From the NCBI GenBank assembly GCA_038087015.1, contig JASBNA010000002.1, positions 682,001 to 746,000 of the forward strand: a DNA stretch of 64,000 bases, in the 5' to 3' direction. Numbering within the stretch: position 1 is the first letter of the stretch; every line of letters starts with the position of its first letter. Below the pieces are notes generated by a model. The model was not told the DNA's origin. It did no database searches and saw only the letters and a list, made by a program, of their open reading frames with translations. A program made the position numbers and the translations under genes. This DNA is from Cerrena zonata (Eukaryota > Basidiomycota > Agaricomycetes > Polyporales > Cerrenaceae). Shown piece after piece: positions 1-22,422 of this stretch.

Positions 1-10
1 CCATCCTTAG

Positions 11-3000
11 AAAGAGCTCTGGACTGAAGTGCGCGATTCAACTTCCGGTGGCGTGCCATACATACTTTCTAGTTTTGCACGCCTCCGTGTACCTGAGGAT
101 GGATCATCCGGCTGCTGGAAGAAGGAAGACTTCCTCCGGATGTTCTATTGGGATAAGAGATACAGCGTATTCTATGATCACCAGCGTACGCTCACCGATG
201 ACCTGGAATGGCCCGGTACATCAGATGTACATCCATTTTGGTGCACACTTGGTACGTTCTCTATGTCTCCTGGCATCCGATTATGCAACTGAGACGGAGT
301 TTAGTTGAGCACATTAATGCTGCCCGAGCAGTTCACAAGAAGCCGCCCTTGATGTTGTGTCTAACATCCCCTGTATTCAAGACTCACCCTCGTTTCTCCG
401 AGTTCTCCAATATGCTCCAAGAGGAGTATCAGCCATTTACAGTGGCTACCACTAGCAGTAAGTACAGTTTCTATTACTATATCTATGCATTCTAACATGG
501 CGAACATTAGGAGAGAAACGCCCCAGAACATCCACCGATACGGAATCCGAAGCAGGGCTGTCAGTCAGAGCCGAAAGAAAGGCTGGTTCATCCGGATCAG
601 CTGAAGCGAGTGTCCATGGACAGCGTTCCGAGGCCACGGTCACTTCCAAGCCCAAGTCAAAACGACTACGTCAGGAATTACAAGATCAGGATGTGGAGAT
701 GACGAATGAAACAACTCCTGCAATGCGGAAGGAAAGCGATAGGAAAGGGAAAGGTCGTGCGGTGGAACCAGTAGTTACGGAAGTGGTATCAGACATTCCG
801 GATGAACCAGAGGTTGAGGAAGATATCGATGGTGTGTTTCTCGTCAACGGAAACCTATCATAATATTGATAGTTTATAGATCTAGCTCATTTGAACCAAT
901 TTGTCAACCAGAATGTGATGTTCAAGGCTGCGCTTAGAGAGCAGCTCTCGGTAAGGCATTACTTCATCAAATAGTTTTCCGGTTACAAAGCTTGACTGAA
1001 ATCTATCTCTAGCCAATACCATGCGAGTCTTGCGCTCAATCCAAGCGTGACTGCTTTGTTGCCCTGGAACATTTCCATGGTTGTTGGAGATGCAAGATTA
1101 ACTCGAACGGCTGTTCTCTTGTTCCAAGAAAGAACCGAACCAAGGGAGGCGAACCAGCTAACATGAAGGGACCTGCAACCTGGCCATGGTTCATCACACT
1201 GGTGTACCATGTGTTGAACGTCCTCGCATTGGATTCTGATGTTGGCCCTCAGGATCTTCCACCGGATTATAGCGGTGTAAAATTCCCTTCTTTCCCACAA
1301 AGCAAGCTGAAGGGTGTTATGCTCCGTCTCAACTCGAAGGAAATAAGTGTTAAGGGTACGGAAAAGAAGAACCTCAAGGCGGACCACAACTACGCCCTTC
1401 CATTTCATCGGTATTCAGATATCGACATTAGGAGAGACAACGCGGATAAATGGCCTATCGTCCCAAGCGATGCTGAGGCTCGCTTCAACAGGATCATCAA
1501 GAGAGCCGCAAGTGGTCAATTGACACGGCCTTGGTCTAGTGAAGAGAGTCCGAAAGAGGATCTCACAGTACGGGGACGCTCGCGATCCAGAGCATCTAGC
1601 CAACCACCGCAACCCACATTACGACCACAAACACGAGCATCTTCTCGGCCACGGATAACCACAGATGCCACATTACAAGGTGGTGTTATCAACACATCCG
1701 AGCTACCCCCTCCAGCAAAGCCTCAACCGAGAGGACGAACTCCATCAAGAGCCCAATCGAAAGGACGAGCTCCTTCAAGAGCCCCATCGAAAGGACGAGC
1801 TCATTCAAGAGCCCCATCGAAAGGAGCCTCAAAGCCTCGTGCTTCTAGGGCAAAATCCATCAAGAAGCCAAGGGAAGAGGAAGATGAGGTGTCATTGGAC
1901 TCCAGTGCGCAGCTAAGGCGATCATACGTTGGAAAACGTCCGCCCCGTATGATGAAGCGTGTTCCGGACAGAACCGATGATGAAGAAGGTAAGTTATATA
2001 ATTTTTGGAGTCCAGTAACTCTCTCAATGCTCTAAAGTCACACTATCAGCATACGAGGCCCAATATGGAAGATCAAAGAAGCGTGTTCTGGTCCAACCAA
2101 CAACTGGTCAACCGGATCCTGAAGATCTGAAATATGACCCCGTTGTGGCCACCGGATCGTCTGCGCAAGGTCACAGGAAGACCTTCAAGTCTTCCGATTC
2201 ACAGGATCGTCCGGTCACAGTGGAGGACCTCTCTCAAGTGCTACTGGATGCGCAGCTTGAACAGGCGCAGGCACTTCTCGTACATGAACGAGATTTCATG
2301 AAGCAGGCTATTCTGGATGGGTGGAAGGAAGTAATGGACAACACGGTGGCCAGCTTGGCCGAATCTTTTGAGAAAGCAGTTGAAGGAAGAACCGATCCAG
2401 TAACGACGATTATCAGCGAAATGAAGAGAAACCAGGAGCAACTTGAGGGACGACTTGACCACAAGATAGGCCGCTCAATGGATGATATCAAGACACATCT
2501 TACCGGACAAATAGCTTCTCATCTGGAGGCATTTGAGGGTCGAGTCCTGGATGCTCTCGTAGAGCTGAGACGTGATGTTCAGGACATCAAAAACGAGAAG
2601 GCAGGAAAGGGCTCAGAGGAACAGGCGCATGGCCTCCCACCTTCCGGAGAAGACAGCAAACCTCAATCCAGGCCCATCGTCATGTATTCGAGTCCTAATA
2701 CGCAAAGCGGATCGTCATCAGGTACGCGATCAAGCTTAAATAGACAATAGAGATAAGGAAACTAATTATTGAACTCTAGATGCTCCGGATGACGATGATA
2801 ATCAGGAGACAGTGAAAGGCGAGATAGATCAGTCTGATGGAGCACAAGAACGAAGTTCAGAAGCAGGGAGTAATCATAGTGTAGTGGGGACAAACCGGAG
2901 CAAAGGCGAGGACCAGAGTAAGTTCTATGCACTTAGTTTCATAGATGGATACTAATAACAGTTTACACGGTAGCGGTCGATCCACTTCCTACTCAACCCT

Positions 3001-3464
3001 TAGTTGGCGACTGTGATGTCGAGATGGATGATCTCACAGAGAGCACACAAGCGATTGAGCAAGGGGCGGATACCTCCAGCATTGAGAACCAAGGCGAAAA
3101 TGACGAAACGGGTGCAACTCGGAACACTAGGCTTGAAAGCAGTAACGACGAGAAAAAGGATGGGGAGGATAGTGACTCCGAAACTGAAAGCGAGAAGGAT
3201 GCGAGTAAGGATGTGGATGAAGAGGATGTGAGCAAGGATCCGGATACGGAAATGGAAGCGGATGAGGAAGCGGATGCGGATGAGGATGCGGATGCGGATG
3301 ATAACGCGGATGCGGATGAAAATGCGGATGAGGATGAGGGTGAGGATGCAGATACGGATGCGGATGCGGATGCAGATGCGGATGTGGAGGAAAATGCGGA
3401 TGAAGATGCGGATGCGGATGCGGATGAGGATGAGGATGATGAAGCGTCCGGATCCGATGTCTAG
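11..3464 (+). CDS. Element-borne Zn2Cys6-like protein with acidic tail (5' partial)
   Basis: The start lies upstream of the window; the first visible exon follows an acceptor at 9-10. Eight exons join in one frame: 11-251, 305-457, 511-831, 880-950, 1013-1988, 2038-2721, 2780-2917 and 2962-3464, giving about 1,030 visible residues. At 1022-1114 there are six cysteines spaced C-X2-C-X6-C-X9-C-X2-C-X6-C, which fits the fungal Zn2Cys6 binuclear cluster; the linker between cysteines 2 and 3 (AQSKRD) is only mildly basic. Downstream come a basic Ser/Arg repeat (1731-1826), a probably helical segment (about 2200-2600) and a long Asp/Glu/Ala tail (3190-3440). The basic middle and acidic tail suggest a nuclear DNA- or chromatin-associated protein. 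I do not recognise the family. It runs towards the minus-strand gene at 3594, with 129 bp between their stops. Confidence 0.75.
1731..1826 (+). repeat. 30-bp coding tandem repeat, about 3 copies
   Basis: A 30-bp unit repeats about three times inside the gene at 11-3464 and encodes a ten-residue, Ser/Arg/Pro/Lys-rich unit (core SRAPSKGRA). The copies are nearly identical, so the expansion looks recent. Confidence 0.85.
3241..3440 (+). repeat. GCGGAT-type hexamer array encoding an Asp/Ala/Glu tail
   Basis: Imperfect head-to-tail gcggat and gaggat hexamers encode alternating Ala-Asp and Glu-Asp at the C-terminus of the gene at 11-3464. The antisense and shifted frames also stay open, which creates spurious Arg/Met and Ile/Arg ORFs. 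Confidence 0.9.
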
Positions 3465-3593
3465 GATGAGTAGTTCATTGATACTCTGTAATAGTAGGAT
3501 ATAGTCTGTAGAATACATTGCACTCTCTTGATATAGACCCTCAAAATGGCAAAGGAAAGAGTTTCAAAGGTACATGAATGTATTTAAGATGAG

Positions 3594-6500
3594 CTATTTT
3601 TTGCCAGCTTTCTTGACCGATTTCCTCCTTGTTGGTTGAGGGTGTCCATTATCCGATGTCTCACCTGCAGCTGGTACCCTTGAGCCATCGCGCTTCCAAG
3701 TCATTTTTTCCTTCGTTCGTAAGTTCCGTCCAGTGTCAGGAACACTTCCGGATGCAGGAGCAGCTCCGGATGCAGGAACACTTCCGGATGCAGGGACGCT
3801 TCCGGTTGCGGGGACGCTTCCGGTTGCGGGGACGCTTCCGGTTGCGGGGACGCTTCCGGTTGCGGGGACGCTTCCGGTTGCGGGGACGCTTCCGGATACG
3901 AGGGTACTTCCGGATGCAGGAGCAGATTCGGATGCAGGAATGCTTCCGGGTGCAGGAACGCTTCCGGATCCGGAGATACCACTGATGAAAGTGGTGGAAT
4001 CTATGAAAACAGTCGGTTATGCATCATGTGAGCAGATGAGGCATCTTACCGTTGTCTGCTAACTTCGATTGCTCGATAAGATTCTTTTTTCCGGCCACCA
4101 CTGTAATCTTCTTATTCTTCCTGGATGGCTGTCGGGGCTTTGGCACGGACTTGGTAGGAAGGGAAGTGGTATTCACGTTAGTGCCTGTGATTGCACTCGA
4201 TCCGGAGGTTGCCAATGGTACGGATGGTGCGACGAGGGCTTTGAATGAAGTGGGGATGGGGAGATTGGATACCGGATTGGCAGCGAGTGTTCCATTCCCC
4301 AAGAGGCCTTCAAATACCTGCTGAGTGGCGGTATTTTGATCCGGTGACCTTCTGGTTGATCCGGACGCTTGCTGCTGGGTAGAATCGTTGAAATATAAGA
4401 GAGGATCCATGCCGGCAAGGAATTCGGCTTGAGTAATTTTGCATATCGCCTTCCAGGTTAGATTGCAGATTCTGCAGATACGAGCCTCAGTATCCATGTT
4501 AAAAGATGTATCAGCGAGATGCCGGGGCAGATGCGCTGGCCAGGGATCTTCGGTATCGGCTTGGGCAAATTGACAGATACGAATATCACGCATGAGCTGT
4601 CCGGAGATTAGAAGGAACTCTTCCAATGCACCCGGTACTCCCCACATGCTTTCATACGTCTCGTTCCACATCCCGATTAGGCCTGACACCATTACCTTTC
4701 CGGCGTCTGCACAATGCACAGTTTCCGGAAGGTACGTGGATGGATTATCCCATCCGATGTCCCCACAGATGGGAGCCGCGCGAGGGATTCGCTGGCCATT
4801 CAGGTCTGAACCTGTCTATAAATGGAGTCGAAGTCAGTCAAATCAGGTCCCTTCCTTGAATTGCCGTGACCTACTTGAGATGTGTCCAACCAAGTTACCA
4901 TCTGGAGATAATAGACATCGTCACACAAGCCGCGCAGATACGCCACTCTATCTGCCCAATTATCACCTGCGGACTGGGGGGAGCCACCTATAACTGCGCC
5001 CTTTCCCTTACCCCCTACTTCCGCTGTATTAGTAGGGCCATTAACACTATCCGCGGCTAATTCCGGAACCGCACTAGCATCCGGATCATCGAGTTCACCA
5101 ACCACTTCCGCCTCAGACTCTCCGGACAGTCGAGGCTTCTTCTTCTTCTGACCTGTAGGCCTCTTGCGTTGACGTTTCACTCCAGAAGTATCCTTCTCAC
5201 CGACTGGTGTCCAGTTACCCTTGGCAGACTTATAAACCTTCCATGTGAAAACGTCCTCGTTCTCTTCCAGCTCATTCCTAGCCTTCATGTCCTGTCGCTC
5301 GACGATTAGATTAGCCCACTCAATCACGATCTCCGCAGGCATTGTAAACACCCGCTCAAGTGAGTAGTTCTCCAAATCAAGCTCAGCAGGAACTGAAGAG
5401 GCGGATGGAAAGTACTTCCTGTCGATATACTTCCACCACGGACCTGTCATTGCTGTCCATGGAGGTCCTATGTCCTTCTTCGTACTACCCATACCCTTAT
5501 CTGTAAGGAAACATCCATTGGAAGTGAGTTTGTGACCAACCTTACATACGGAATAACGTACTGTAATACCATCTCACATACAGAGCAAGGGCCTTTCGAA
5601 GAGTCTCTAGCTGTCTCTCATACGGTCCTCTTGGCAAGACTGGAGTCCCGTCTGGATGGTAACTGAGAGCAAGCGAATCGTCATCCGTCTCTTTCGGATC
5701 GTCCGCAGTGACACCCAACTGGCGATTGATTTCCTTCACGTAGTCGGTGGGTGTCCAGTCGTATGATTCCTTGTCGGATAACGTCTTTACGAACTTGGAG
5801 GTTCCCTTGGACTCCATTCTGTATAAAACATGCGTACATCAATTAGATTGTATGCTTATCGGCAGAATACTGGCTTACATTGCAGACATAGTCCCCTTAG
5901 TCCCAGGTCTAACCGTCACCGCAATGATGGAAACGTCGAACACATTTGCAAAATGGTTCAACACTTTCTGGAACTCTTCCTCGAAGTGTTTATCGCCGTA
6001 TCTGTGTGTAATAACAACTAATGGTAACCCAGTTCTCGCTTATCCGTAACAAAAGCAACGTACAATGCCTTCATATCCTTTGCAGCCTTTCCATTGTTAA
6101 ACTCATGCGCTTTGAGTTCGTAGGCGGTGACTTGTGTAGGATCCAACCCTGACCAAAGAGCGTCCCTAGCTGCCATGACCTCCTTCAACCAATATTTATG
6201 CTTATTGGGGTTTGGGCAATTAAATTTGGTCAGGACAATAGGCTTGATCTTCGACTCCCACTGCTCAGTGTGAAAGAATTGGATCCCGGTCAACTCGAAA
6301 GGCTTGACAACCCTCGACTTCTTCACCTGGGTTGACTTGATAGTGAGCCATTGACGGACACTCTAAATAATATCCAGTTAGAACATGGTACTGTTATTCA
6401 TATATTGTCAAGCAGACTTACTGTAGCGACTGACTCTTTCTTAGCAGCATCCTCAATCTCTGCTTCATTACAAATGATAGCCGTCACTTCCGCTATCGTT

Positions 6501-6616
6501 TGATCACATCCGTCCGTATCGTCATCCTTGAAGCAGGCCGTGTATTCCGATAAAGCACTTTCCAGATGAACGCACTGCGCTGGGCTGAAGTTGTATGTTT
6601 TCTCCTGGTGAACCAT
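3594..6616 (-). CDS. Element-borne unknown protein with Gly-Ser-Val-Pro-Ala-Thr repeat tail
   Basis: Minus-strand gene, ATG at 6616, stop at 3594-3596. Exons that chain cleanly are 6616-6422, 6362 to about 6020, then through 5818-5562, 5500-4875, 4815-4050 and 4000-3594. One junction near 6020-6050 does not close: the frame shifts just after DKR, and only an implausibly short intron (about 29 nt, donor GTACGT) or an indel would repair it. The product would be roughly 900 residues. The N-terminal half has an alpha/beta look, a Lys-rich patch follows (near 5130-5170), and the C-terminus has repeats with a basic last 20 residues. I do not recognise the family. It diverges from the TET/JBP gene across a 305-bp shared promoter region, which supports it being part of the element. 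The unresolved junction could mean the copy is damaged. Confidence 0.7.
3741..3966 (-). repeat. 18-bp coding minisatellite containing TCCGG
   Basis: About a dozen 18-bp units based on cttccggttgcgggg or cttccggatgcagg sit in the last exon of the minus-strand gene at 3594-6616. They encode the six-residue repeat GSVPAT/GSVPAS. Central units are identical and edge units diverge, as in a growing array. Each unit carries TCCGG, and several carry the full TCCGGA palindrome. Confidence 0.9.
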
Positions 6617-6921
6617 GGTGATGAATGTCGTAGTTCAGGTTCAACTTGCTAACGTCCTGTATCCCATCATGCAATTATCTGTGGTATTCCATTCTACCAA
6701 ACGTTGCCACTTGAAAGGCCATGTGGTTGTGGATCTCGGTTATCTCCAGAAAGTCAATCTGAGAGGGCGGCTTCTAGATCTAGACTGATTGGAAGCATCA
6801 TCCGGAACGATACAAACAAGACACAATAAAGGAAGTACATATAGGACGGTAAGTATGTCCATCTTCAAAATCCCTCTGACGTCACTTCTTGACTATCCGG
6901 CGATAGAACTTCCATCAGAAA
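6617..6921. other. Shared divergent promoter region, unknown gene / TET-JBP
   Basis: 305 bp between two start codons pointing away from each other. It holds one TCCGGA site (6801-6806) in non-coding DNA. I see no clear TATA box. Confidence 0.6.
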
Positions 6922-8208
6922 ATGAATGCCGATGACTTTTCATCCCACGTTGCATGTTTCATGCAAGATCTGTTTAAGTACCAACTCGCCGTAGCCACAT
7001 TACACCCAATGCCTCCTAGTGATCCCGATCCACCGATCGGATGTGATCCGGAATTAATCGTATTCTGCAGGAATGCGATAAGAATTCTTATCATAGCATT
7101 CACGAACATCAGTACGTATGTCATTACAAGGAATAACTTGCAATAGTTCACAAGGTGAACTCAGCGTATATAAGCTGGGATTTTGCTTCGTACGTTGAGG
7201 ACTGTAAGGCCAGTGCTCTTGGCCATGGAGACAGGAAAGAAAAGGAGGAGGAGCTCCTGCAACGGTGGCCACCTGAATATCCTGTGACTGTTCATGTTGA
7301 CAACCCCCGGGTATTTGCTGATCCATCCGGACGACTCATTGCTTGGGTTCTTCCAGAAATTGTACCGCCCACATATCAGGTATGTACTATTGCCAGCTGA
7401 CGATTGAACCAATAGTTTGACTTGTACGCAGGATCAACTTCACAGGGGAACCAAGCTCCTTGAACCTTTTCTTGTCCAGAAGCTTGGCGAAGCTCAATTC
7501 AGTGGGTCATGGCGTTCCAACCTGGAGTATTTCTCAGATGATAATTCGTTTATCCGGAGCGGATTCGTCAATTTCTCTCCCGCATGGTACATGGCGGGTC
7601 ACAATGTAATTGTGTCGCTCTAGTTTCAGAAATATGTGGCGTTGATTGATGAATGTTAGGACCCGCTCTGCACTACACCAATTTTAGAGTCCCCTGATGG
7701 CATGGAATTTCTTGCTACCACCAAAGAGGTGTTCGCTCTTATAACAGGCATTCTTGCTGTTGTTCATCCTAAACAATATGCAATGGCGAAAGAGATGAAA
7801 AGGGCAATGATTGAATCTGGTCAATGCGAAGAAGCGCTATGCAGATGGCCAACTGTCTTTACCGCGATATCGATCATTTCCAATAGAGAAAGCCCTCTCC
7901 ATAGGGACCTCCACGAGGCGTGGGAATGGTTCGACTTCCTTCTGTCTATCGGACCATATGAACAAGCACCTCTCTACTTACCAAACTTAGGCATCAGGGT
8001 AAACAATCATCCAGGAACAATTTGTGCATTCGGGGGACGGGCTCTATGGCACGGAGTACGGAAGGTATCGCCTCGCATCACATTTGCATTATATATGCGG
8101 AAACTGGTTCAAGAGGGGCTAGAGATAGAACCGGCAGGATGGATCACCCAGCTGGAGTATGAGATGTACATCGGGGTGAATCGACAACACCTGCGGAGAC
8201 GTGAATAG
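6922..8208 (+). CDS. TET/JBP-type 2-oxoglutarate/Fe(II) DNA dioxygenase
   Basis: Predicted 381-residue enzyme of the TET/JBP superfamily, which oxidises 5-methylpyrimidines in DNA using Fe(II), O2 and 2-oxoglutarate. Four exons close in frame: 6922-7111, 7147-7379, 7432-7605 and 7660-8208. The catalytic core is complete: the metal-binding H-x-D is His280/Asp282 (motif LHRDLHE), the distal metal His is His330 (WHGV) and the 2-oxoglutarate-binding Arg is Arg338 (SPRITFALYM). The stretch before HRD (VFTAISII) and the EWFDFLLSIG block after it match fungal members. All key residues are present, so the copy looks intact. It lies 89 bp upstream of the KDZ transposase on the same strand, the known fungal arrangement. 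Which modified base it prefers cannot be read from sequence. Confidence 0.93.
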
Positions 8209-8297
8209 CCAGACCCTTTTGTACTGGAAAGAAACCTCCTTTTTGTAGAATTACCGATCGTCATAGGCAGCCTCTCTACTGTTCCTCTATTGTAAAC

Positions 8298-11200
8298 ATG
8301 GTTCGCTCTCGACGTACGCAAGAAAGATACGCAGCCGATATTCTCAACACTGTTTACTTGGAATCATCTTTACGGCCTTCTCATAAACGTAAACGTAAAC
8401 TTCAGAAGATTCCACTTGGGACGGGTCGACATGAGCGATCCCACCATACTTCTCAGCCACATAACGTTCCAGATGTGTTCCCTGATCAGAACATGTACAA
8501 TGGTACCCCTGAACCAGCTTATCATGACCTTGGTCGACTGCCAGTCAGAAAGAATGTAAGACATGCAATAACAGTCCATTGAAGACGTATTATTCACTGG
8601 AGACGTAGAATCAAAATGACCTGATGCGAGAGTTCCTAGAGAATCGTGACAGGATACTTACGATTATTGCTGAACGTGATGCACCACCGACAGACAAGAC
8701 TTGTGGAAGTTGCCGTTCTGTGACTCCGTCTAACGCAATGCAATGGAGATGTCACTCCTGCTTTGGAGAGCCAGTGTTTTGTAGTCAATGTATCCGTCGC
8801 TCTCACCAAAACCTTCCGTTCCACTCTGTGTCGAGGTGGGATGGAAAAGCGTTTCATAGATCATCGCTATCGAAAGTGGGAGTTACATTGAATCTAGGGC
8901 ATTGCGGTCAGCTTTGTCCCGCATATGTATACTCAAATATGTCATATGGACATACGCCTCAAGATCCTCTAGACAGTGGTCACCGACCTATTCCACCAGC
9001 GGATGCTATGGATATTGATCGAATCTCCAGTCAGAGTCCGCTACCTCTCGAAGCTATAAACCCAGAAGTTACCGGACAGGCTTCTCGTTCACCTTCAGAA
9101 CCGCCCCTTCAGCATAGTACCGACTCTACATCCAACTCTCGTCCAATTCGACACTCAATTGATCCACTTCTTGACATTGATAGCGATGATGAAGATGACT
9201 GGAGAGATCCTGCAACTGGTGGTATCCCTCTTCGAAACAAGAAACCAGACCGCGGTTACGATGAACATGGCTGTCCTATGATCACTGCCGTTCATGCCTC
9301 CGGAGTTCATGAGCTTCGCATCCGACCTTGCCGCTGTGATTCTGGAAGGGATATCCCAGTGTTTGAGCAGATGGTGTATATGGGGCTTTATCCCGCTTCA
9401 AGCAAGAAGACACGGACGATCTTCACCTTTGAGGCTCTTGATGACTATGACCTTGAAAATCTGGAAACTAAGGCTTCTGCAGCTAGACATTATCAGAAGC
9501 TGACACGACTCACATCAAATGCCTTCCCAACGATGGTTCCCAATCGCTACCGTGAGCTTATGATGATCTCAAGACAATGGAGAAACCTGAAGTCAAGACA
9601 AAGAGCCGGATATGCTTATCGTCGAGCGGATGCAATTCCTGCGGGCGGATTGGCTCTCTTTTGTCCGACATGTCCCCAGCCAGGTGTAAATCTTCCGGAA
9701 GATTGGATAGACGATCCTGATAGGTAAATATACTCTTGTCGTCCATCTAAACCATATCATTTACTTATGCTCATTAGGACAAAATATATGCGGACATTAT
9801 TAGCGGATGGGAACTTCAAGCAGGATCACTTAGCAATGAAGTATGACTCGGACGACGTTGCTTTGAGTGATGGCCATGGGTATATGGTTACCCGAGCTCC
9901 ATTTGAGGCCTACCTTAATGCAACATCCGATCCGGTTACGATGGTGAGTGAGATATAACGGATGTACTGATCACTGAGCTGACCATGTCCATGATCATAG
10001 GAGCCATCCTGTCATGAACATCGGGCTGTAACACAGCAAAATAAATCACACGCTCACCTGGATGTCACTGGAATAGGAGCAATTGCTTGCGGACGTCACG
10101 GATGCTTCTACCCTCATTCAGTAGTCAACTTTCGTAAAGGGGAAGGGTACGTCTTATATTATTACTAATCCGACGTCTCTGATTATATTCAAGGCAACGT
10201 TATATGGATTATGCATTCATACAAGCAATATTGTATGTCCGGGACCTTCTTGTGGTTCTCCTGCTCTATGACATCATGTGTCAGTTCTGGGTCAATTTCC
10301 GGAGACGACTTTCTGCAATGCCATCTGAGCTAAAGCTTCCGGATGGTGTGGAGTTCAAGCGTGGGATCGGATTGTTCCATGTCCATGGCCATGTGAAGGA
10401 ATGCTTTGCTCGATATGCTCCAACATTCATCAAGGGAGCAGGAATGCTGGACGGAGAAATCATTGAGACACTATGGAGTTTGCTCAACTATACTGCGTCA
10501 AGTGCAAGAGCAATGTCGTGGTTCCATCGTCAAGAGTATATAGATGCACATATGTGCGATTCTAATTGGAAGAAACTCATAGGAATGGGTAAGAATCCTT
10601 CACGTTTCATCACACTTCTTCAAACGTGCTTATCTATATCCTATTTGAGTTGCGGCAATATTCCGGAAATGGAAGAATGCTGTTGATCAAGCGGCGGAAT
10701 CTGAGGAGGACTTCCAGTCACTTTGTACGTCCGTTGGGGAGGAGAAGTCGAAGAAGTGGTCTATTGAGGAAGCGGAAGCACAGGCTAGACGGGACGGAGA
10801 TCCCACAGCTATGGACATTTTTGATATAAAGGAGGAGGAAGGTTAGTATCTCTCGATTGTCATCCGTCCTGTATATAGCTAACCCATCCAAACAGCACCC
10901 GGGAAGACCGTTATGGCAAATATTTGGATCTACAGAGAGTTGGAGCCAAATACTACCGCAGAAAAAGGATCTACTTCGTGGATTACTACAGGCCTTCGTA
11001 TTGCAGAGCAGCAGTAAGTCATTTGATGTGGTAACCTCGGATAAAACTAATGGCTCGCAGAATCGAACTTCGGAAAGAAGTCCGAAAAGCAGGCAGATTT
11101 CCAGGTCCGGATGTAACAAAAAGCTTGCTAGAGAAGCGGCAGCGTCTTCAACAGCAAATTGACCAATTTAAAGCACAATCCAACCATTTTGTCTCGCTCA

Positions 11201-12103
11201 CTAACGAGCCTGATCCGGATCCATCTACATCACCGGATGATTGGGAGGACGAACTTCCGGATGGTTCAGCGGATGCGGATGTGGCACAGGACTCTGATGA
11301 AGTTATAACTGACATCTCGGATGGTCGACAAGCGGAACGTCTTGCTATTCCTCTCCCATCCTCATTTGGTAAAGTTGCCTGCCAGACCAGATTACAGAAC
11401 CTTGCAGCAATTGAGCTTGACTTACGGATTGGTCAAGCAAATGATGCGTTACGCTTTCTCAGGATCGCTATTGGACAAAAGTCTTTCAATTTCCGCAACA
11501 AGTTCCACAACGGAAGTGCAAACTCTGGATACAAGAACCGACTTAGAAGCTACGCGGAGAACCAGACCCTCCAAATGACGGTAGACCAAGCAGCCCAGGT
11601 CTATAAATCTTCACGAAACGCTATGGAAATTCTCGGAGCTTCCAAGGAGACCTTATCGAAATTCAAGATATTGACCAAAGCTCACTTATCCGCAAGCACA
11701 GCAGTTGTGGATCCTAATGCTCGTGGGGAGCGAAATAATGGTCTGTCCTGGATATGGCATACGCAACACGATCCTGCACAGGATCCAGCCTGGTTGGATG
11801 AATGTAAGTTCCGCCACCATCAGTGTAGCGACAGTTTCGACTTACTATTGCATAGTGTACCGTGTAAACTGGCTCAGGGCCAAGTCCAGACGGGATCGCT
11901 GGGCTGAGGAGCTCGCACTCACACAAGCTGAGATGGAGTGGACGAGATTGTTCCATCATCACAGGAAGAATTTATGGCTGGGCCGAGCCAACGAAGCTAT
12001 GGCTGATAACCCGAAGCTTCAATATTACGCACAGAAGCAAGCAAAGACATGGGACTTACTGGCAAGTCAAGTCGACAATGCTCTGTCCTGCATGCGAGAA
12101 TAA
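8298..12103 (+). CDS. KDZ-family transposase with CxC2-like cysteine cluster
   Basis: Nine exons close in one frame: 8298-8555, 8609-9723, 9778-9943, 10001-10146, 10194-10588, 10650-10841, 10896-11013, 11061-11803 and 11856-12103, giving 1,126 residues. The N-terminus is basic (RKRK near residue 31). A cysteine cluster follows (C118-x2-C121, C134-x2-C137, C144-x2-C147), like the CxC2 domains fused to KDZ transposases. The RNase-H-fold core shows LDVTGIG (Asp534), CGRHGC, YDIMCQFW (Asp588), GLFHVHGHVKECF and DGEIIETLW (Glu653 region), candidate DDE residues. The C-terminal third is helical and charged. KDZ transposases are DDE enzymes that move large eukaryotic DNA transposons. No stop or frameshift interrupts the chain, so the gene may be functional. 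Confidence 0.93.
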
Positions 12104-12251
12104 GGCAGTCCTTCTATATATGGAATGTTTGCTGATGTGTAAGGTTATGTACGTGTATTTGTATATACATGTGTAGGAAAGCGTGGTCGTTTGATCTGAT
12201 AAGAATGATAGTCGCTTCACCTTTAACTTCAAGCAGCGCATACATTCAATA

Positions 12252-13065
12252 ATGTCAGAACAGCTTGACAGCAATGAATCAGTGTATGTAGCTCACAGTA
12301 GTAGCTGCATAACGACCCACACTAACGACTTCAGCAGAGATGAAGGATATACTCCTGAGGCTCATATAGCGTGGAGACTATTGTATCGGCTGTGGAGGCT
12401 TGATGAAGCCTCTAGAGCATTTCACGGTGCTCTGAAAAGAGTAGAGAACCAGAAGGATCAACAGTTGGCTGTTTTCCGAAGGTGGAAAATTGGATTGATC
12501 TTGGAGGTGGTGAGTATTTCACTTTAGATGATGAGATACACAAGTTACATATTTAGTAGGAGGACCTTGAGAAGGCTCTCGCACACATGTGCATCAGCGG
12601 ACTAATGACAACGCGCCTCAGCAATGCAATACACAGACGGCTCGACTGGCTCGATTATAATCAGTATCCGCCGAGTATTGACTTTAGTAGGTTACCGGAT
12701 GCGGATGCACCATCCGCTCCGGATCTCACCGAACTCTTTGATGGAGTGGTCCCTCAGATCATTCAGGGGGGAACCCACTGGTGGAATTACAATGAAAGTA
12801 CTGACTCGACTGAGGACGCACCATACTGGTGGGCAGATCCATCAGAAGAGGTATACCTCTTCCTCAAATTAATGTTTAGTACAAAATACTAATCCGTCTT
12901 AAGAGGTGGTCTTATAATGTTTCAGTACCACGAGATCTAGTCGGACAGTATGTGAGAAGGTTGACGCAATCTCAAGAATTGCTATCTCATGCTGTTTCGA
13001 AATTACGGGAGCTGCAAGATGAAGTTCAAACCGGAGAAGGAAGCACAGCAAGTGCAGAGGATTAG
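12252..13065 (+). CDS. Small element-borne protein of unknown function
   Basis: Four exons close in frame (12252-12283, 12335-12509, 12560-12850, 12904-13065) and give 219 residues. The N-terminal half is helical and rich in Trp/Arg/Leu (WRLLYRLWRLDEA). The middle has an Asp/Pro-rich loop encoded by GGATGCGGATGC-type DNA and a Trp-rich segment (WWNYNE, YWWADP). The C-terminus is a probable short coiled coil. I do not recognise the family. It starts 149 bp after the transposase on the same strand and carries the TCCGGA signature (about 12719), so it is probably an accessory gene of the element. Confidence 0.7.
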
Positions 13066-13269
13066 TAAATACGGATACAACACAGTTAGAAGAGTGCGGA
13101 TGTATTCTCGGATGTACTTGTGCGGATCATCTTTCAACATGCGAGATAATATAGAGAGTTTCAGCTTGCATAAAACCAGTACGGCTATAGGGTGGTGAGT
13201 ACATTGCAATCAAACCAACTATGACCGCAATGTGCGTATGTGAACCATCCAGAGCCATACAGAATGCAA

Positions 13270-15250
13270 GTTGGGTTGAGTTGGGCTAACTGACACCATG
13301 CATACCGACATGAAACGATACAAATTGAGTCAAATTGAGCAGATTGGGACCGTGGTATACAGAAAAGTACTTTTCAGTTGAGCCAACTGGGACGGTTGCA
13401 TGCCAATGAACATTTATTTTAGTTGGGCCAACTGGGATGGGCACATACCAACAGGAAACTATATCCATTTGATACGGTCGGGCCGACTGGAATGGTGACA
13501 TGCGGAATACGAGAGAGATAAATTATTTCAGTTCGGTCCAACCGCAGTCGTGGGCAGCGGAGGAATACGATGGATATTTACACCAGTCTGATCGACTGGG
13601 CTGGTGACATCCGGCATACTAGAGAGTGAGATTATTCCAGTCGGTCCAACCGGAATCGTGGCATGCGGAACGCTAGAGAAGTGAGACTGTTTCAGTTGGG
13701 CCCACTGAGATGGAGGGATGCGACAGGGAAGCCATGCCTGTATATCCCAGTTGGATCGACTGGGATGGTGACATGCGGAGTACGAGAGAGATAAATTATT
13801 TCAGTTGGTCCAACCGCAGTCGTGGGCAGCGGAAGAATACAATGGATATTTACACCAGTTGGACCGACTGGATCAGTGGTATACGGAGATTTAGGGTGGT
13901 AGAATTATTCCAGTTGGTCCAACTGGAGTCGTGGGCAGCGGAGGAATACGATGGATATTTACACCAGTTGGACCGACTGGGCTGGTGACATCCGGCATAC
14001 TAGAGAGTGAGATTATTCCAGTCGGTCCAACTGGGGTCATGGCATGCGGAACGCTAGAGAAGTGAGACTGTTTCAGTTGGGCCCACTGAGATGGAGGGAT
14101 GCGACAGGGAAGCCATGCCTGTATATCCCAGTTGGACCGACTGGGCTGGTGACATCCGGCAAACTAGAGAGTGAGATTATTCCAGTCGGTCCAACCTGGG
14201 TCGTGGGCAGCGGAGGAATACGATGGATATTTACACCAGTTGGACCGACTGGGATGGTGACACCCGGCAAACTAGAGAGTGAGATTATTCCAGTCGGTCC
14301 AACTGGGGTCGTGGGCAGCGGAGGAATACGATGGATATTTACACCAGTTGGACCGACTGGGATGGTGACACCCGGCAAACTAGAGAGTGAGATTATTCCA
14401 GTCGGTCCAACTGGGGTCGTGGCATGCGGAACGCTAGAGAAGTGAGACTGTTTCAGTTGGGCCCACTGAGATGGAGGGATGCGACAGGGAAGCCATGCCT
14501 GTATATCCCAGTTGGATCGACTGGGATGGTGACATGCGGAGTACGAGAGAGATAAATTATTTCAGTTGGTCCAACCGCAGTCGTGGGCAGCGGAGGAATA
14601 CGATGGATATTTACACCAGTTGGACCGACTGGGCTGGTGACATCCGGCATACTAGAGAGTGAGATTATTCCAGTCGGTCCAACCGGAATCGTGGCATGCG
14701 GAACGCTAGAGAAGTGAGACTGTTTCAGTTGGACCCACTGAGATGGAGAGATGCGACAGGGAAGCCATGCCTGTATATCCCAGTTAGACCGACTGGGATG
14801 GTGACATGCGAAGGATGGAGAAAGTACAATTACCCTAGTTAGCCCAACTAAACTCGAGGACAGTGACGCAATATAATGGATATTTGCATCAGTAGGGCCT
14901 ACTCGATCCGGGAATCCTGATGGAGAACAACGCAAATATATCCGAGTTGGATGGATTAAGATCGTGGCCCGCGAAATGTTAGAGAAGTTTAATTATACCA
15001 GTTGGACTGACCAGAGCCGTGGTATACCAAGTGCTATAGTGATAGAGTCATTGCAGTTGGGCCGGCTAGGATCGAGGAAGAAATAATGAATATATTCCAG
15101 TAGGACCAACCGAGCCCGTGGTATACACAATAAGAAAGTAAACATCATATGTCCGAGTTGGGCAAATCAGTTGGTGGTCTACCGGACCAACACAATTCTG
15201 GTTGGCATAACTGGGCCGCTGCGCTCGGAGTTTACTTACCTATACTATAC
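13270..15250. repeat. Palindrome-cored minisatellite with higher-order blocks
   Basis: About 35 units recur every 50-60 bp. Each has a pseudo-palindromic core, consensus CCAGTYGGWCCRACTGG, followed by one of about five spacer types, which recur in order. Block copies are visible: 13680-13860 is nearly repeated at 14440-14620. Units at both edges (13270-13500 and 14800-15250) are decayed while central ones are nearly identical, the usual pattern of an array growing from the centre. Because the core is palindromic, both strands stay open in places and spell Pro-Val-Gly-Pro-Thr-Gly; I treat that as non-coding. Confidence 0.92.
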
Positions 15251-15299
15251 TGGTGTAGTTGGTCCTACTCACCCGCATACCATGACATCTAGATGAGAG

Positions 15300-16980
15300 C
15301 TAGTCGAGCCAACTCATCCAAGGGATCTGGTTCTCAGTACAAGTCCGATCAGCCCCAACTCGCCCAGACTTGACGAGCATATTCCCCCCAACTTGCTCCA
15401 TGTGCTGCGGGAAAAGAGGACTGAAGGGGCTGCGCAAGTTCCCTTGCCCATTCGCTAATATTTGAGAGACAACACTACTAGAAAGTCTTCCATGACGAGC
15501 CTTCGAATGAGGTAACCTAATCGACAGACGCCGCAATGTCAATCCTAATCTCGAAATAGTTTCAATATCCTATGCAAACAAGATAAGGTTCCTGTATGTG
15601 GTACATTATTGGAGAGTACTGTACCAAAATGTGATCATGACATGCAATAGCAAGTTCCTCCATCTGCGGGCACCTCGTGCACAATTCCTGCGTTATTGCC
15701 AAGCTCAAGTAAGCCGTAGGCATATAGAGAACACGAAGTGTCGCTGCATGTCTTGCGATCAAGTGTTTTACAAGTCCATCGAACGATACACAAGGACCTC
15801 GAATTTCGTACGAATCGGCAATGAGGTAAAGTTCTTCCAGAGGCGAACTTCTTGAAAGATGATGTACAAATTTGATCAGGTATGCCGCATCTGGTGTTTC
15901 CGTGATATGCGTGTGGCGGATGGTTAGAGATTGAAGGTTAGGTAGGGGAGGTTTAGTAGATAATTTGCGTAGTTGCTGGGCTATCAGTCAGCAACAGCCA
16001 TTAGCGATAGAAAAAGAACGCACTTGATAGTATTGTATATCGAGTTTCTGGAGATTCGGAAGATGTGGGAGAAAATCAAAAACATCTTGGTGAGTTAGAG
16101 AGTATGAGAGTCCCAAAGCAAATGTTCGGATTCTAGATCCAAATGGGATAAACGAACGAAGTACGCCGGGAGTAACAGAACCACAATTATCCTAATAAAT
16201 ACATGTGTTCGGGCAGCTGTAGGCTCAGCAAATCTCACATCCAACGTGGAAAAGAAATCACCTTCAAATGAAAGCCTGTCAGAGTGGAAGACAAACGATT
16301 CAGCCATTCAGGCATCAAGTTTAGGATAGCTCGTCCGGGGCTTTCAATAGTGAGGTTTTCCAAGCTGCAAATCCTGACAAGTAGTGGAACAGCCTCTTCT
16401 GAACAACACGATGCATTAACGGTAAGGTCTCTTAGGGACAGGCATTGAGGAAGAGTCTCAAAGGTTGTCAAGATCAATTCCTGAGGATATCGATATGGGG
16501 TTAAAGCAAATGAACGAAGATTCGTCCATTCACGAAGGGCCTCGGATAGAGTTTGTGGGAAACGATTCATCGGCGGAGGTCTATCTTCCAGGAATCCTAA
16601 CATACAATAATGTCAAGAAAGATGGAGAAGAGGAACTAGAGGCCATATGGATTTACCCGCAATCCGAACGTCCAGTACATGCTGCCTATTATGAGGCAGA
16701 CGAGCGGAAGTGAAGAGGCCGTTCTAACAAATTACATAAACGTCAACAATGAGTGTGTATGTATTCGATGGGACGATGTGGGTACCAATTGTTGATCCCT
16801 TCGGCCAAGACGAAGAACATTGGTAGGTTCAGGCTCCAGTACCACTTTGCGATATAACAGCCTCGAGGCTGCATCATTGAACACCCGGTTTACCAATGAA
16901 CAAGCAAAGAGTGTTGGGTAAAATTCAGTTTCCTCGAGCGAATCAAAGACATGGATTAGTACGTCGTAGTTTAGTTCCAT
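15300..16980 (-). CDS. F-box/leucine-rich-repeat protein
   Basis: Six exons close in frame on the minus strand (16980-16786, 16723-16657, 16596-16262, 16191-16024, 15975-15625, 15569-15300), giving 461 residues. The first 50 residues (start MELNYDVLIHVF) read as a fungal F-box, the Skp1-binding part of SCF ubiquitin ligases. Leu-rich segments follow (for example LSLRDLTVNA, LENLTIES, LPNLQKLDIQ), as in LRR substrate-recognition regions. An upstream in-frame Met at 17052 is possible, but the F-box begins at the chosen start. The last roughly 60 codons lie against the minisatellite and contain decayed copies of its core, so the C-terminus seems to have been rebuilt from repeat DNA. Substrate unknown. 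Confidence 0.85.
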
Positions 16981-20848: not shown

Positions 20849-22422
20849 GACGGTGCCGCAGACTCGTGTTATAGAAGACCAAAGTTGTCTGTAAGAGGTG
20901 ACGGATAGGGGTGGTGGCCAACAGCTACAACAGTGGAGCGGAAGGGCGAGGTATTTGGGTAGGGCAATGTCAAAGGGACGTGGCCTGAGTCAGCACGCGT
21001 AAACGGGCAGGTAATCGAGGGACAAAGCACGAACGTCTAAGAGGTCCGACTATATATTTCACACAGAAACCAAACTGATGTGCCGATAGGAGCGTACGCG
21101 TTGTGACAACTCGCAGCTTCACTGGTTCGGCGACAAATATGTCAAAATGTATATGGCCGCAGCTTATTGCACTGCGGTAGTTGGGTGAGGCTGTGCTCTG
21201 AACCTAGCTCGGATATGGAAAAACTCGACCGGAAAATTTCGGCATCTGTACTAGCCTACATCCTTGTGAAAGTAACGACAAGCCATTCAATGACCGAATA
21301 CCCATACTAACTGCTTGGTATTTACTAGATTTGAATATATGTGGGAAACATCTCCTATATCATCACTTGGAATCCCTCAGCGGAAGCTCAAGCCTTAACT
21401 CTATCAGTACAGGAGTTTAATGCCAGTGTACGTCTTATCTACTTGGGTCACACATTGGCCAACCCTTCCCATATTTCACTCCTCCTTCATCCGACCAGTA
21501 CAGTACATATGGGCCTGTACGTGTCGATGACGGATGACTGGTCGCAGCGTTTCTGCAAGATGATGATCGTGCATTTTCGATTGACCTTATTTGTACATGT
21601 CGCGGCGGAAAATAATTGGCCCCACGTTACTCCTTTCTTTCTTTCCTTGTCCTTTTGGTTTGCAACTCCGATGTGAACGATCTAACACTCCTTATGTAAC
21701 CTGAAATGCATATGCAAACTGAGGTTACGATTCATATTCTTACAAGGGGTATTGTATATCTGATTGAAGACTTATTCACAAACCTCATGCATCATGTTAG
21801 ATTGCAGTACTGAAACTTCCGAATTGATACGGATATTCCGAGTCAGTTTCTAAACCTATGCAATCTACTCTTCCTTAGCCGCTCTTGGTTACAGAACACA
21901 AACACCAGGTGGGCCACAATGTTAACCGATGTCCTTCTCCTGCCAGTGAGGTCGCAGCGCTTTGTGAACCATCAGTGAACATCCAGTGGTCACAGGTGAG
22001 TGTTATTTGATCTTCCTTTAGCGCAGTCATCCGATCCCAACCGATGCAATAGAATAGAAATGCTACGGTCAAATGAGAGCTACACCTCGGGACCCGAACG
22101 TATTGGCAGAAGTCATTGCATCTTTGAAATCGGCCAAGCGGCCGCTGTAGCACCCGGCTCCGGATGCACGGTAACGTACAGTGGTCGAATTGTTCTAAAA
22201 TGTCGTCGATACCTATATCACGAGTTCGCGACTGTGGGCCTATATCTGAGCTTACCAAGCTCGAGCAAGACACGTCGTATGACAGTTTGTTCAAGTTCTC
22301 AAACTTGTGGTTTTACAAAAACAGAGAATCGAATTTCGGGCCAATTCTACAAACATACAAGATACTTATGGTGGAGAGTTACAACATTTCAACAGCACCA
22401 AAAACAGAGGGATGTTCCGAGC
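20849..22422. other. Gene-poor stretch (1.6 kb)
   Basis: Open frames here (for example around 21341-21676 and 22000-22536) do not link into exon chains and show no family motif. I see no repeat or RNA gene. Confidence 0.5.

Follow-up and report, generated by a model that had tools for sequence, protein, structure and literature searches.

The window analyzed here, a 64,000-nucleotide stretch of the 55.5-Mb Cerrena zonata genome (C2:682001-746000), opens inside a transposon that carries a KDZ transposase gene and a TET/JBP dioxygenase gene and that is densely sown with the palindrome TCCGGA. What this word is for bears on the wider question of how transposon-borne TET enzymes find their targets. 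The account that we favor, and hold to be just on the probable side of even, is that TCCGGA would serve as the recognition word of the transposon family, read by a Zn2Cys6-like protein that the element itself encodes and that would aim TET at the family's own copies. It builds on the words themselves, their family specificity and their presence in KDZ loci that carry TET, on the conservation of sites in two of the classes, and on a constant gene neighborhood, all of which were observed.

TCCGGA occurs 35 times in window positions 1-13,100 and three times in 15,251-64,000 (at 22,159, 24,928 and 43,630), with none between. The hand counts of an earlier sequence-only reading (about 35 and about three) were confirmed, and the positions that it quoted were right within a few bases (135, 591, 3,239, 3,969, 6,801, 7,326, 9,694, 10,338, 11,214 and 12,718). 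Its estimate of a 30-40-fold density holds against the flank (43-fold) but not against the whole genome, where 9,868 occurrences in 55.5 Mb put the element at about 15 times the average; the larger factor arose because the flank is poorer in TCCGGA than the genome average, with three observed for an order-1 expectation of 12.3. Markov models of the element itself (1-13,100) predicted 2.9, 3.6 and 10.5 occurrences at orders 0, 1 and 2, and 23.4 and 33.5 at orders 3 and 4. The last two absorb TCCGGA because CCGG, CCGGA and TCCGG are themselves enriched, and the excess of the hexamer is an excess of a short core with graded flanks. TCCGGA was by far the first of the 64 palindromic hexamers in 1-13,100, the runners-up having 10 occurrences (p = 2e-9, tested against the larger of its own order-2 expectation and the flank rate). 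Base composition was rejected as the cause by the own-sequence Markov models and the palindrome ranking. Second in that ranking was TGGCCA (10 versus about 3), which completes the set of four T-SSSS-A palindromes, and AAGCGTCC and AGCGTCCC each occur eight times in 1-13,100 and not at all in the flank.

Nine of the 35 sites sit in low-complexity tandem coding repeats at 3,001-4,020. The other 26 remain in 12,081 bases and still rank TCCGGA first (p = 1e-7), and the repeats were rejected as the sole cause. They do account for much of the excess of GCGGAT, which had also been described as over-used. Synonymous-codon shuffles (n = 300) of 11 long open reading frames (ORFs) outside the repeat stretch yielded a mean of 4.3 sites and a maximum of 11, compared to 20 observed, a count that includes one site twice in overlapping ORFs and comes from a set in which some ORFs may be no true exons. 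On this basis neither codon usage nor protein sequence was accepted as the cause, and the earlier statement that codon usage alone is no explanation was borne out. With the repeat stretch left aside, the 11 ORFs together hold 19 sites (2.6 per kb) and the remaining DNA of the element seven (1.5 per kb), both far more than the 0.06 per kb of the flank. As first described, sites lie outside ORFs as well as within them, on either strand, and each of the three frames is represented, though frame 1 by a single site.

Across the genome KDZ was matched 141 times (86 places once merged by hand) and TET 53 times, of which 48 were kept after five partial sub-threshold matches were dropped. KDZ lies within 14 kb of 46 of the 48 TET genes, and in 43 of these cases 2.2-3.6 kb away. 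Nineteen TET-bearing KDZ loci were read as pieces of 3.8-13.1 kb, with C62 included although its TET is a 37-residue remnant. In an unbiased ranking of the 64 palindromes, one of three words came first in 15 of the 19: TCCGGA in eight (the window, C115, C11, C125, C4, C41, C48 and C106), TGCGCA in four (C53, C62, C37:303k and C1:1.80M) and TCGCGA in three (C17, C19 and C40). That TCCGGA is one of three family-specific words had escaped the sequence-only reading. By the loci's own order-2 models the weakest cases were C41 (10 versus 5.5, p = 0.05), C48 (p = 0.008) and C19 (p = 0.005). TCGCGA was raised relative to the flank at C96 (8 versus 1.0) and C1:2.10M (6 versus 1.6); by the loci's own models it ranked only third there (p = 0.06 and 0.05), with GCGA the first and second tetramer. 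Codon shuffles across 17 loci reached the observed count in 0 of 300 for 11 loci and in 1-34 of 300 for the other six.

Unrelated loci that are equally rich in the word, a possibility raised along with the first count, were not found among KDZ loci that lack TET: 23 of these, read as 3.35-3.9 kb, hold zero to three copies of each of the three words, whereas six of seven equal-sized windows from TET-bearing loci hold 5-12 copies of their class word. The seven windows overlap loci in the 19-locus ranking, and 10 kb from one of the TET-less loci, C3:142209, lies a partial TET match that falls below the threshold. The word as a general trait of KDZ elements was rejected on this evidence. Other hexamers and settings stood out at single loci. 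L006 (C37:324508) shows CTCCAG raised (10 versus 2.6). L048 (C34:127485-133484) shows TGCACA (9 versus 2.2) and TGCCCA (10 versus 2.3) raised, perhaps a decayed or changed TGCGCA code. L042 (C62:216011-226010), in the TGCGCA class, holds 17 TGCGCA in 10 kb, yet its TET is reduced to a short remnant. L001 (C6:1793550-1796567), with no KDZ match, has five TCCGGA in 3 kb.

Within each class the enrichment centers on one sequence context. In the pooled TCCGGA class only CCGG was enriched (3.37) among the ten NCGN contexts and the other nine were depleted (0.50-0.87), which upholds the claim that the CpG center is kept. The leading context of the TGCGCA class was GCGC (4.21, followed by 1.11 for the next), and that of the TCGCGA class, pooled from four loci without C1:2.10M, was GCGA (2.17, followed by 1.23). 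Directly outside CCGG, 56% of arms have T/A, compared to 28% in the flank, and at the position after that 43% have A (31% in the flank). The two arms vary independently in the TCCGGA class, with both, one or neither present in 152, 236 and 93 cases versus 151.6, 236.9 and 92.6 expected; the TGCGCA class has somewhat more full palindromes than expected (55 versus 44.4). Of the six near misses that keep CGGA, five (GCCGGA, ACCGGA, TACGGA, CCCGGA and TGCGGA) were enriched 2.4-4.5-fold, while among those that alter it TCTGGA, the deamination product, reached 1.8 and others 1.2 and 0.4. This pattern resembles a graded binding preference.

The KDZ tree, rooted at the midpoint, comprised 37 rows, namely the 19 TET-bearing loci and 18 of the 23 TET-less loci (L010, L014, L017, L032 and L034 were left out). 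The TET-bearing loci stood apart from the TET-less rows (support 96/93), the TCCGGA loci formed one clade (100/98), the TGCGCA loci another (99/96), and the TCGCGA loci lay without resolution beside the two. TCGCGA may therefore be the older word, although the root is only a midpoint. A TET tree of 17 rows agreed (TCCGGA clade 100/100, TGCGCA clade 98/98), with a long branch leading to the TCCGGA class.

Individual sites come and go from one copy to the next. When the eight TCCGGA copies are aligned over their TET-KDZ segment, 89 sites occupy 41 columns, of which 29 are used by only one of four lineages and none by all four; of the window's 12 sites there, one to three recur in a given other copy, at 64-68% identity. 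Even so, each of the eight copies has a density of 16-27 per 10 kb. TCCGGA was retained in 142 of 470 cases between far pairs (0.30, versus 0.12 for all hexamers) and in 62 of 113 between near pairs (0.55 versus 0.38), and other CpG-centered hexamers were retained less (0.08 and 0.31), in comparisons whose copy pairs are not independent. In the TGCGCA class, seven of 11 sites of L041 were retained in L052 (versus 0.20 for all hexamers) and two of eight in L054 (versus 0.09). For both words the positions of sites shift from copy to copy, but existing sites outlast other hexamers. Conversion of a near miss to TCCGGA ran at 0.063, compared to 0.015 pooled for the other 63 palindromes, with TGGCCA equally high at 0.066. 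Of the C17 TCGCGA sites lost in C19, 10 of 15 differ by CpG transitions alone (counted from the listing), as if C19 had lost protection from methylation-driven CpG decay or its word had shifted towards TCACGA. At L049 (C19:499398-505397) TCACGA occurs 18 times versus 3.1 expected, where its relative C17 often has TCGCGA.

The candidate reader of the word is encoded in the element, whose features within the window are as follows.

1..13,234, continuing about 2.9 kb to the left (to about C2:679119), plus strand: KDZ/TET transposon, probably of the Kyakuja type (from motif density and homology to other copies).
135..12,723, no strand assigned: dispersed TCCGGA sites (n = 35), nine of them within 3,239-3,974 in the low-complexity coding repeats.
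1..2,750, plus strand: gene for the Zn2Cys6-like protein, candidate reader, with several exons and a start left of the window (ORFs; match to P0001 and P0002 of C. zonata).
1,022..1,114, plus strand: cysteine cluster CX2CX6C-X9-CX2CX6C of that protein (pattern scan; Pfam Zn_clus).
3,594..6,634, minus strand: ORFs of one or more genes (DNA matches to L038, L040, L044 and C11).
7,705..8,103, plus strand: TET/JBP dioxygenase domain PF12851 (62 bits, cut-off 34.9).
8,609..13,065, plus strand: KDZ transposase gene, with a CxC2 domain near 9,281-9,520 (68 bits) and the KDZ domain PF18758 near 10,186-10,566 (104.8 bits, cut-off 26.6).

The gene order is thus Zn2Cys6-like protein, minus-strand ORFs, TET/JBP and KDZ transposase, with KDZ about 2.5 kb downstream of TET. 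The spacing CX2CX6C-linker-CX2CX6C was found by scanning in the window, C11 and C62 copies; most other pieces end before the gene. Zn_clus (PF00172) was the only Pfam match of the window's cysteine-cluster domain. The first protein of the element has a homologue in QCA50_005508 of C. zonata, and the relative P0002 of the same species, 81% identical over the domain, bears the UniRef name Zn(2)-C6 fungal-type. A sequence search of the PDB returned one match (E = 1.1), which was taken as chance.

The genome was searched with the window and C62 domains; fragments, duplicate matches (C48 pieces) and C33:77796 (E = 0.58) were dropped, and loci matched by both queries were listed once, under the better query. 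Of the 48 TET genes, 41 have a Zn2Cys6-like gene within 15 kb; it is upstream on the same strand in 39, and in 38 of those 39 at 5.9-7.8 kb from TET. None was found within 15 kb of the other seven (C1:2105014, C124, C46, C107, C108, C21 and C31); C124, C46 and C31 lie within 6.2 kb of a contig start on the plus strand, so that the gene would fall off the end. In the TET-bearing family of L006 and C1:2156113 the zinc-cluster gene is on the other side and strand. Identity to the window's domain was 65% at C115, 66% at C11, C125 and C106, 68% at C4 and 64% at C41, all TCCGGA loci, and C48 has the domain only in pieces. Identity to the C62 domain was 99% at C53, 94% at C37:298k and 66% at C1:1.81M (TGCGCA loci). 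Of the TCGCGA loci, C17 (27%), C19 (28%) and C40 (39%) were compared to the C62 domain and C96 (40%) to the window's. By sequence similarity, the groups of this putative reader match the motif class. Zn2Cys6 proteins typically bind CGG half-sites, and TCCGGA contains two overlapping CGG half-sites.

A mechanism can be proposed from these observations. An element-encoded DNA-binding protein, most likely the Zn2Cys6-like one, would bind TCCGGA and also weaker half-site variants, thereby covering the whole element. Once bound, it would bring or help the element's own TET/JBP dioxygenase to oxidize 5-methylcytosine there, and the family, not the rest of the genome, would escape methylation-based silencing. 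Related elements of the same genome would do the same through TGCGCA or TCGCGA and divergent forms of this protein. We infer three points here: the role of the Zn2Cys6-like protein as reader, its cooperation with TET, and anti-silencing as the outcome. More generally, and tentatively, at a level a little short of even, each TET-bearing family may carry a single T-SSSS-A palindrome centered on CpG throughout its length, even inside its genes, as a self-address code through which its own zinc-cluster protein would aim TET at that family's copies alone. The code in this genome may have changed from TCGCGA to TCCGGA and TGCGCA, which would leave three non-interfering anti-silencing systems. Among the roles first suggested for the sites, binding of an element-encoded factor fits best, given the upstream gene at near-constant distance and its similarity groups that match the word classes. 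A role as methylation or oxidation targets finds indirect support in the presence of the words in TET-bearing and not in the 23 TET-less loci, and in the CpG-transition losses of C19.

Several observations weigh against this account. The window's domain scored 9.1 bits and that of C62 7.9 bits against a Zn_clus cut-off of 21, and C11 gave no match, hence the name Zn2Cys6-like only; the AlphaFold2 model of the cluster (pLDDT 47.7) was uninformative. The TCGCGA-class proteins are known only from search matches, and retention of TCGCGA from C17 in C19 (two of 17 sites, versus 0.23) was no better than that of other hexamers. C1:2105014 leans to TCGCGA, yet no Zn2Cys6-like protein was found near it, and at least six further Zn2Cys6-like matches lie away from any TET match. 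At two TET-bearing loci, C34 (L048) and C37:324k (L006), none of the three words is evident, and the domain of the wordless L006 family is 46% identical to the window's. Among the near misses, TTCGGA shows no enrichment (0.7) although its CGGA half is intact, and neither does TGTGCA (0.7), the deamination product of TGCGCA. Word pairs also occur outside TET-bearing KDZ elements. The TET-bearing loci form one tree group, and the link between TET and motif may therefore be a single event. Finally, the KDZ and TET trees divide into the same classes and therefore cannot tell which protein reads the word.

The main rival is TET's own preference, which the trees do not separate from a dedicated reader. 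The TET enzymes of each class might themselves prefer cytosines in CCGG, GCGC or CGCG, such that context-rich copies are oxidized best and no separate reader is needed. Class does follow the TET tree, with its long branch to the TCCGGA class, all three words contain CpG, and a single NCGN context is enriched in the TCCGGA class. The preferred bases, however, reach beyond the CpG context (T/A beside the core, then A), C62 still has its word although its TET has shrunk to a remnant, perhaps recently, and the linked Zn2Cys6-like gene is left unexplained. We regard this explanation as unlikely, though it deserves more weight than those that follow.

Less likely again is binding of the KDZ transposase, or its CxC2 part, for transposition complexes or self-recognition, a role also considered in the sequence-only reading. 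Class follows the KDZ tree too, and the CxC2 cysteine cluster adjoins the KDZ domain; yet the transposase alone is weakened as the binder by the 23 wordless TET-less KDZ loci, although these come from other KDZ branches, and recognition of ends needs no sites spread over a whole element. A mutation or repair bias that spares CpGs of one context from deamination or generates them, without selection for binding, would fit the depletion of other CpG contexts in the TCCGGA class and the CpG-type losses in C19, but is improbable, in that protection cannot lift a context three- to fourfold above the flank, the preferred T/A and A lie outside CpG, new sites arise at many different places at the steady density of the eight copies, and families within one nucleus differ in word. 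Just as improbable is a host zinc-cluster factor or methyltransferase that recognizes the words and that the elements turn to their use or simply put up with: Zn2Cys6 factors are numerous in fungi and TCCGGA pairs are present in other repeats too, but there are three words in three element groups, and TET-less KDZ loci of the same nucleus lack them.

Pairs of the words were counted genome-wide. TCCGGA pairs number 213, compared to 69 for a reversed control, and 13 of the 50 listed lie in three TET-bearing elements. TGCGCA pairs number 57, with a reversed control (190) above the word itself; 10 of the 50 listed, one of them at the C4:470k family, lie in or beside TET-bearing loci. TCGCGA pairs number 98 (control 33), with three to five of the 50 listed in or beside TET-bearing loci. 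The arrangement TCCGGA-N6-TCCGGA occurs at nine sites, six of them at TET-bearing copies (C11, C22, C124 and C125), and its reversed control at none. Some other repeats do carry TCCGGA pairs. In repeats away from KDZ/TET matches, such pairs lie at C3:1964061 and 1969056, C5:74608 and 79603, and C2:1073663 and 1091923, in the same orientation and about 5 kb (or 18 kb) apart, like long terminal repeats. Elements other than KDZ/TET ones may use TCCGGA as well.

On the left, dense CCGGA sets in near C2:679,300; on the right, the C11 copy is homologous as far as window position 12,959. The likeliest ends of the element are a candidate CA...TG pair with the 7-bp repeat CGTATGT at -2,881/13,234; ten other candidates have right ends at 13,807-14,731, inside a minisatellite. 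Four further TCCGGA just left of the window bring the whole element to about 16.1 kb with 39 sites. Inverted repeats in 1-15,300 number 92, and the 25 longest include no convincing terminal pair. The minisatellite-like array that adjoins the element (13,300-15,250) consists of imperfect repeats around CCAGTCGGTCCAACTGG in both orientations, reads as PVGPTG-type repeats and holds no TCCGGA. The minus-strand ORFs are partly conserved in other TCCGGA-class copies; no Pfam family was found in the four pieces scanned, and a homologue search with the piece at 6,018-6,359 found none.

In the sections of Kojima 2025 (PMC12730594) considered here, TET-bearing Kyakuja elements of Agaricomycetes combine a KDZ transposase with a TET/JBP gene, for which an escape from methylation is proposed; Kyakuja is the only TET-bearing type reported there for Polyporales, the statement on which our use of the name rests. 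Kyakuja elements have 7-bp target duplications, CA..TG ends and no terminal inverted repeats, and the candidate ends described above fit the first two. Section 4.2 of that paper speculates that Agaricomycete TET enzymes act without target specificity. Its main text contains neither "zinc" nor "Cerrena", and its examined parts describe no family word. Neither such words nor a linked zinc-cluster gene were found in the literature covered in part (including PMC12730594, PMC5735166 and PMC8889193), a set outside which stand the two 2014 papers on KDZ/TET elements of fungi and on oxidized cytosine in Coprinopsis.

The closest known parallel is one of mode of working. According to the parts of Hosaka et al. 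2017 (PMC5735166) used here, VANC21 of Arabidopsis binds YAGTATTAY, which is dense in VANDAL21, and causes methylation loss, and the targets of VANC6 carry other motifs. The elements described here share a dense, short, family-specific motif in their own copies, and related families with other motifs and diverged proteins; where VANC is an element-encoded protein with methylation loss in its own family, the present elements would have a candidate reader and a presumed loss. Unlike the palindromes scattered here inside and outside ORFs, VANC motifs are mainly non-coding, run in one orientation and were spread by tandem repeats, and the VANC system as described in those parts has no linkage to TET. 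The reader resembles Gal4-type Zn2Cys6 proteins (PF00172) in its cysteine spacing, in the UniRef name of P0002 and in the fit of CGG half-sites to TCCGGA, but it scores below the Pfam cut-off, is transposon-borne and is only a putative DNA-binding protein. Short words that run across coding and non-coding DNA are also known as the DNA uptake sequences of Neisseria and Haemophilus, which serve bacterial DNA uptake; here, by contrast, the carrier is a transposon family.

The family word provides a sequence mark by which such elements can be found, and it turns the targeting of TET into a directly testable question, namely whether protein X binds word X and not word Y. If our account is true, it could supply small sequence-specific DNA readers naturally partnered with a demethylase, and these transposon families would possess a fungal counterpart of the plant VANC system, one that works through the oxidation of methylcytosine.

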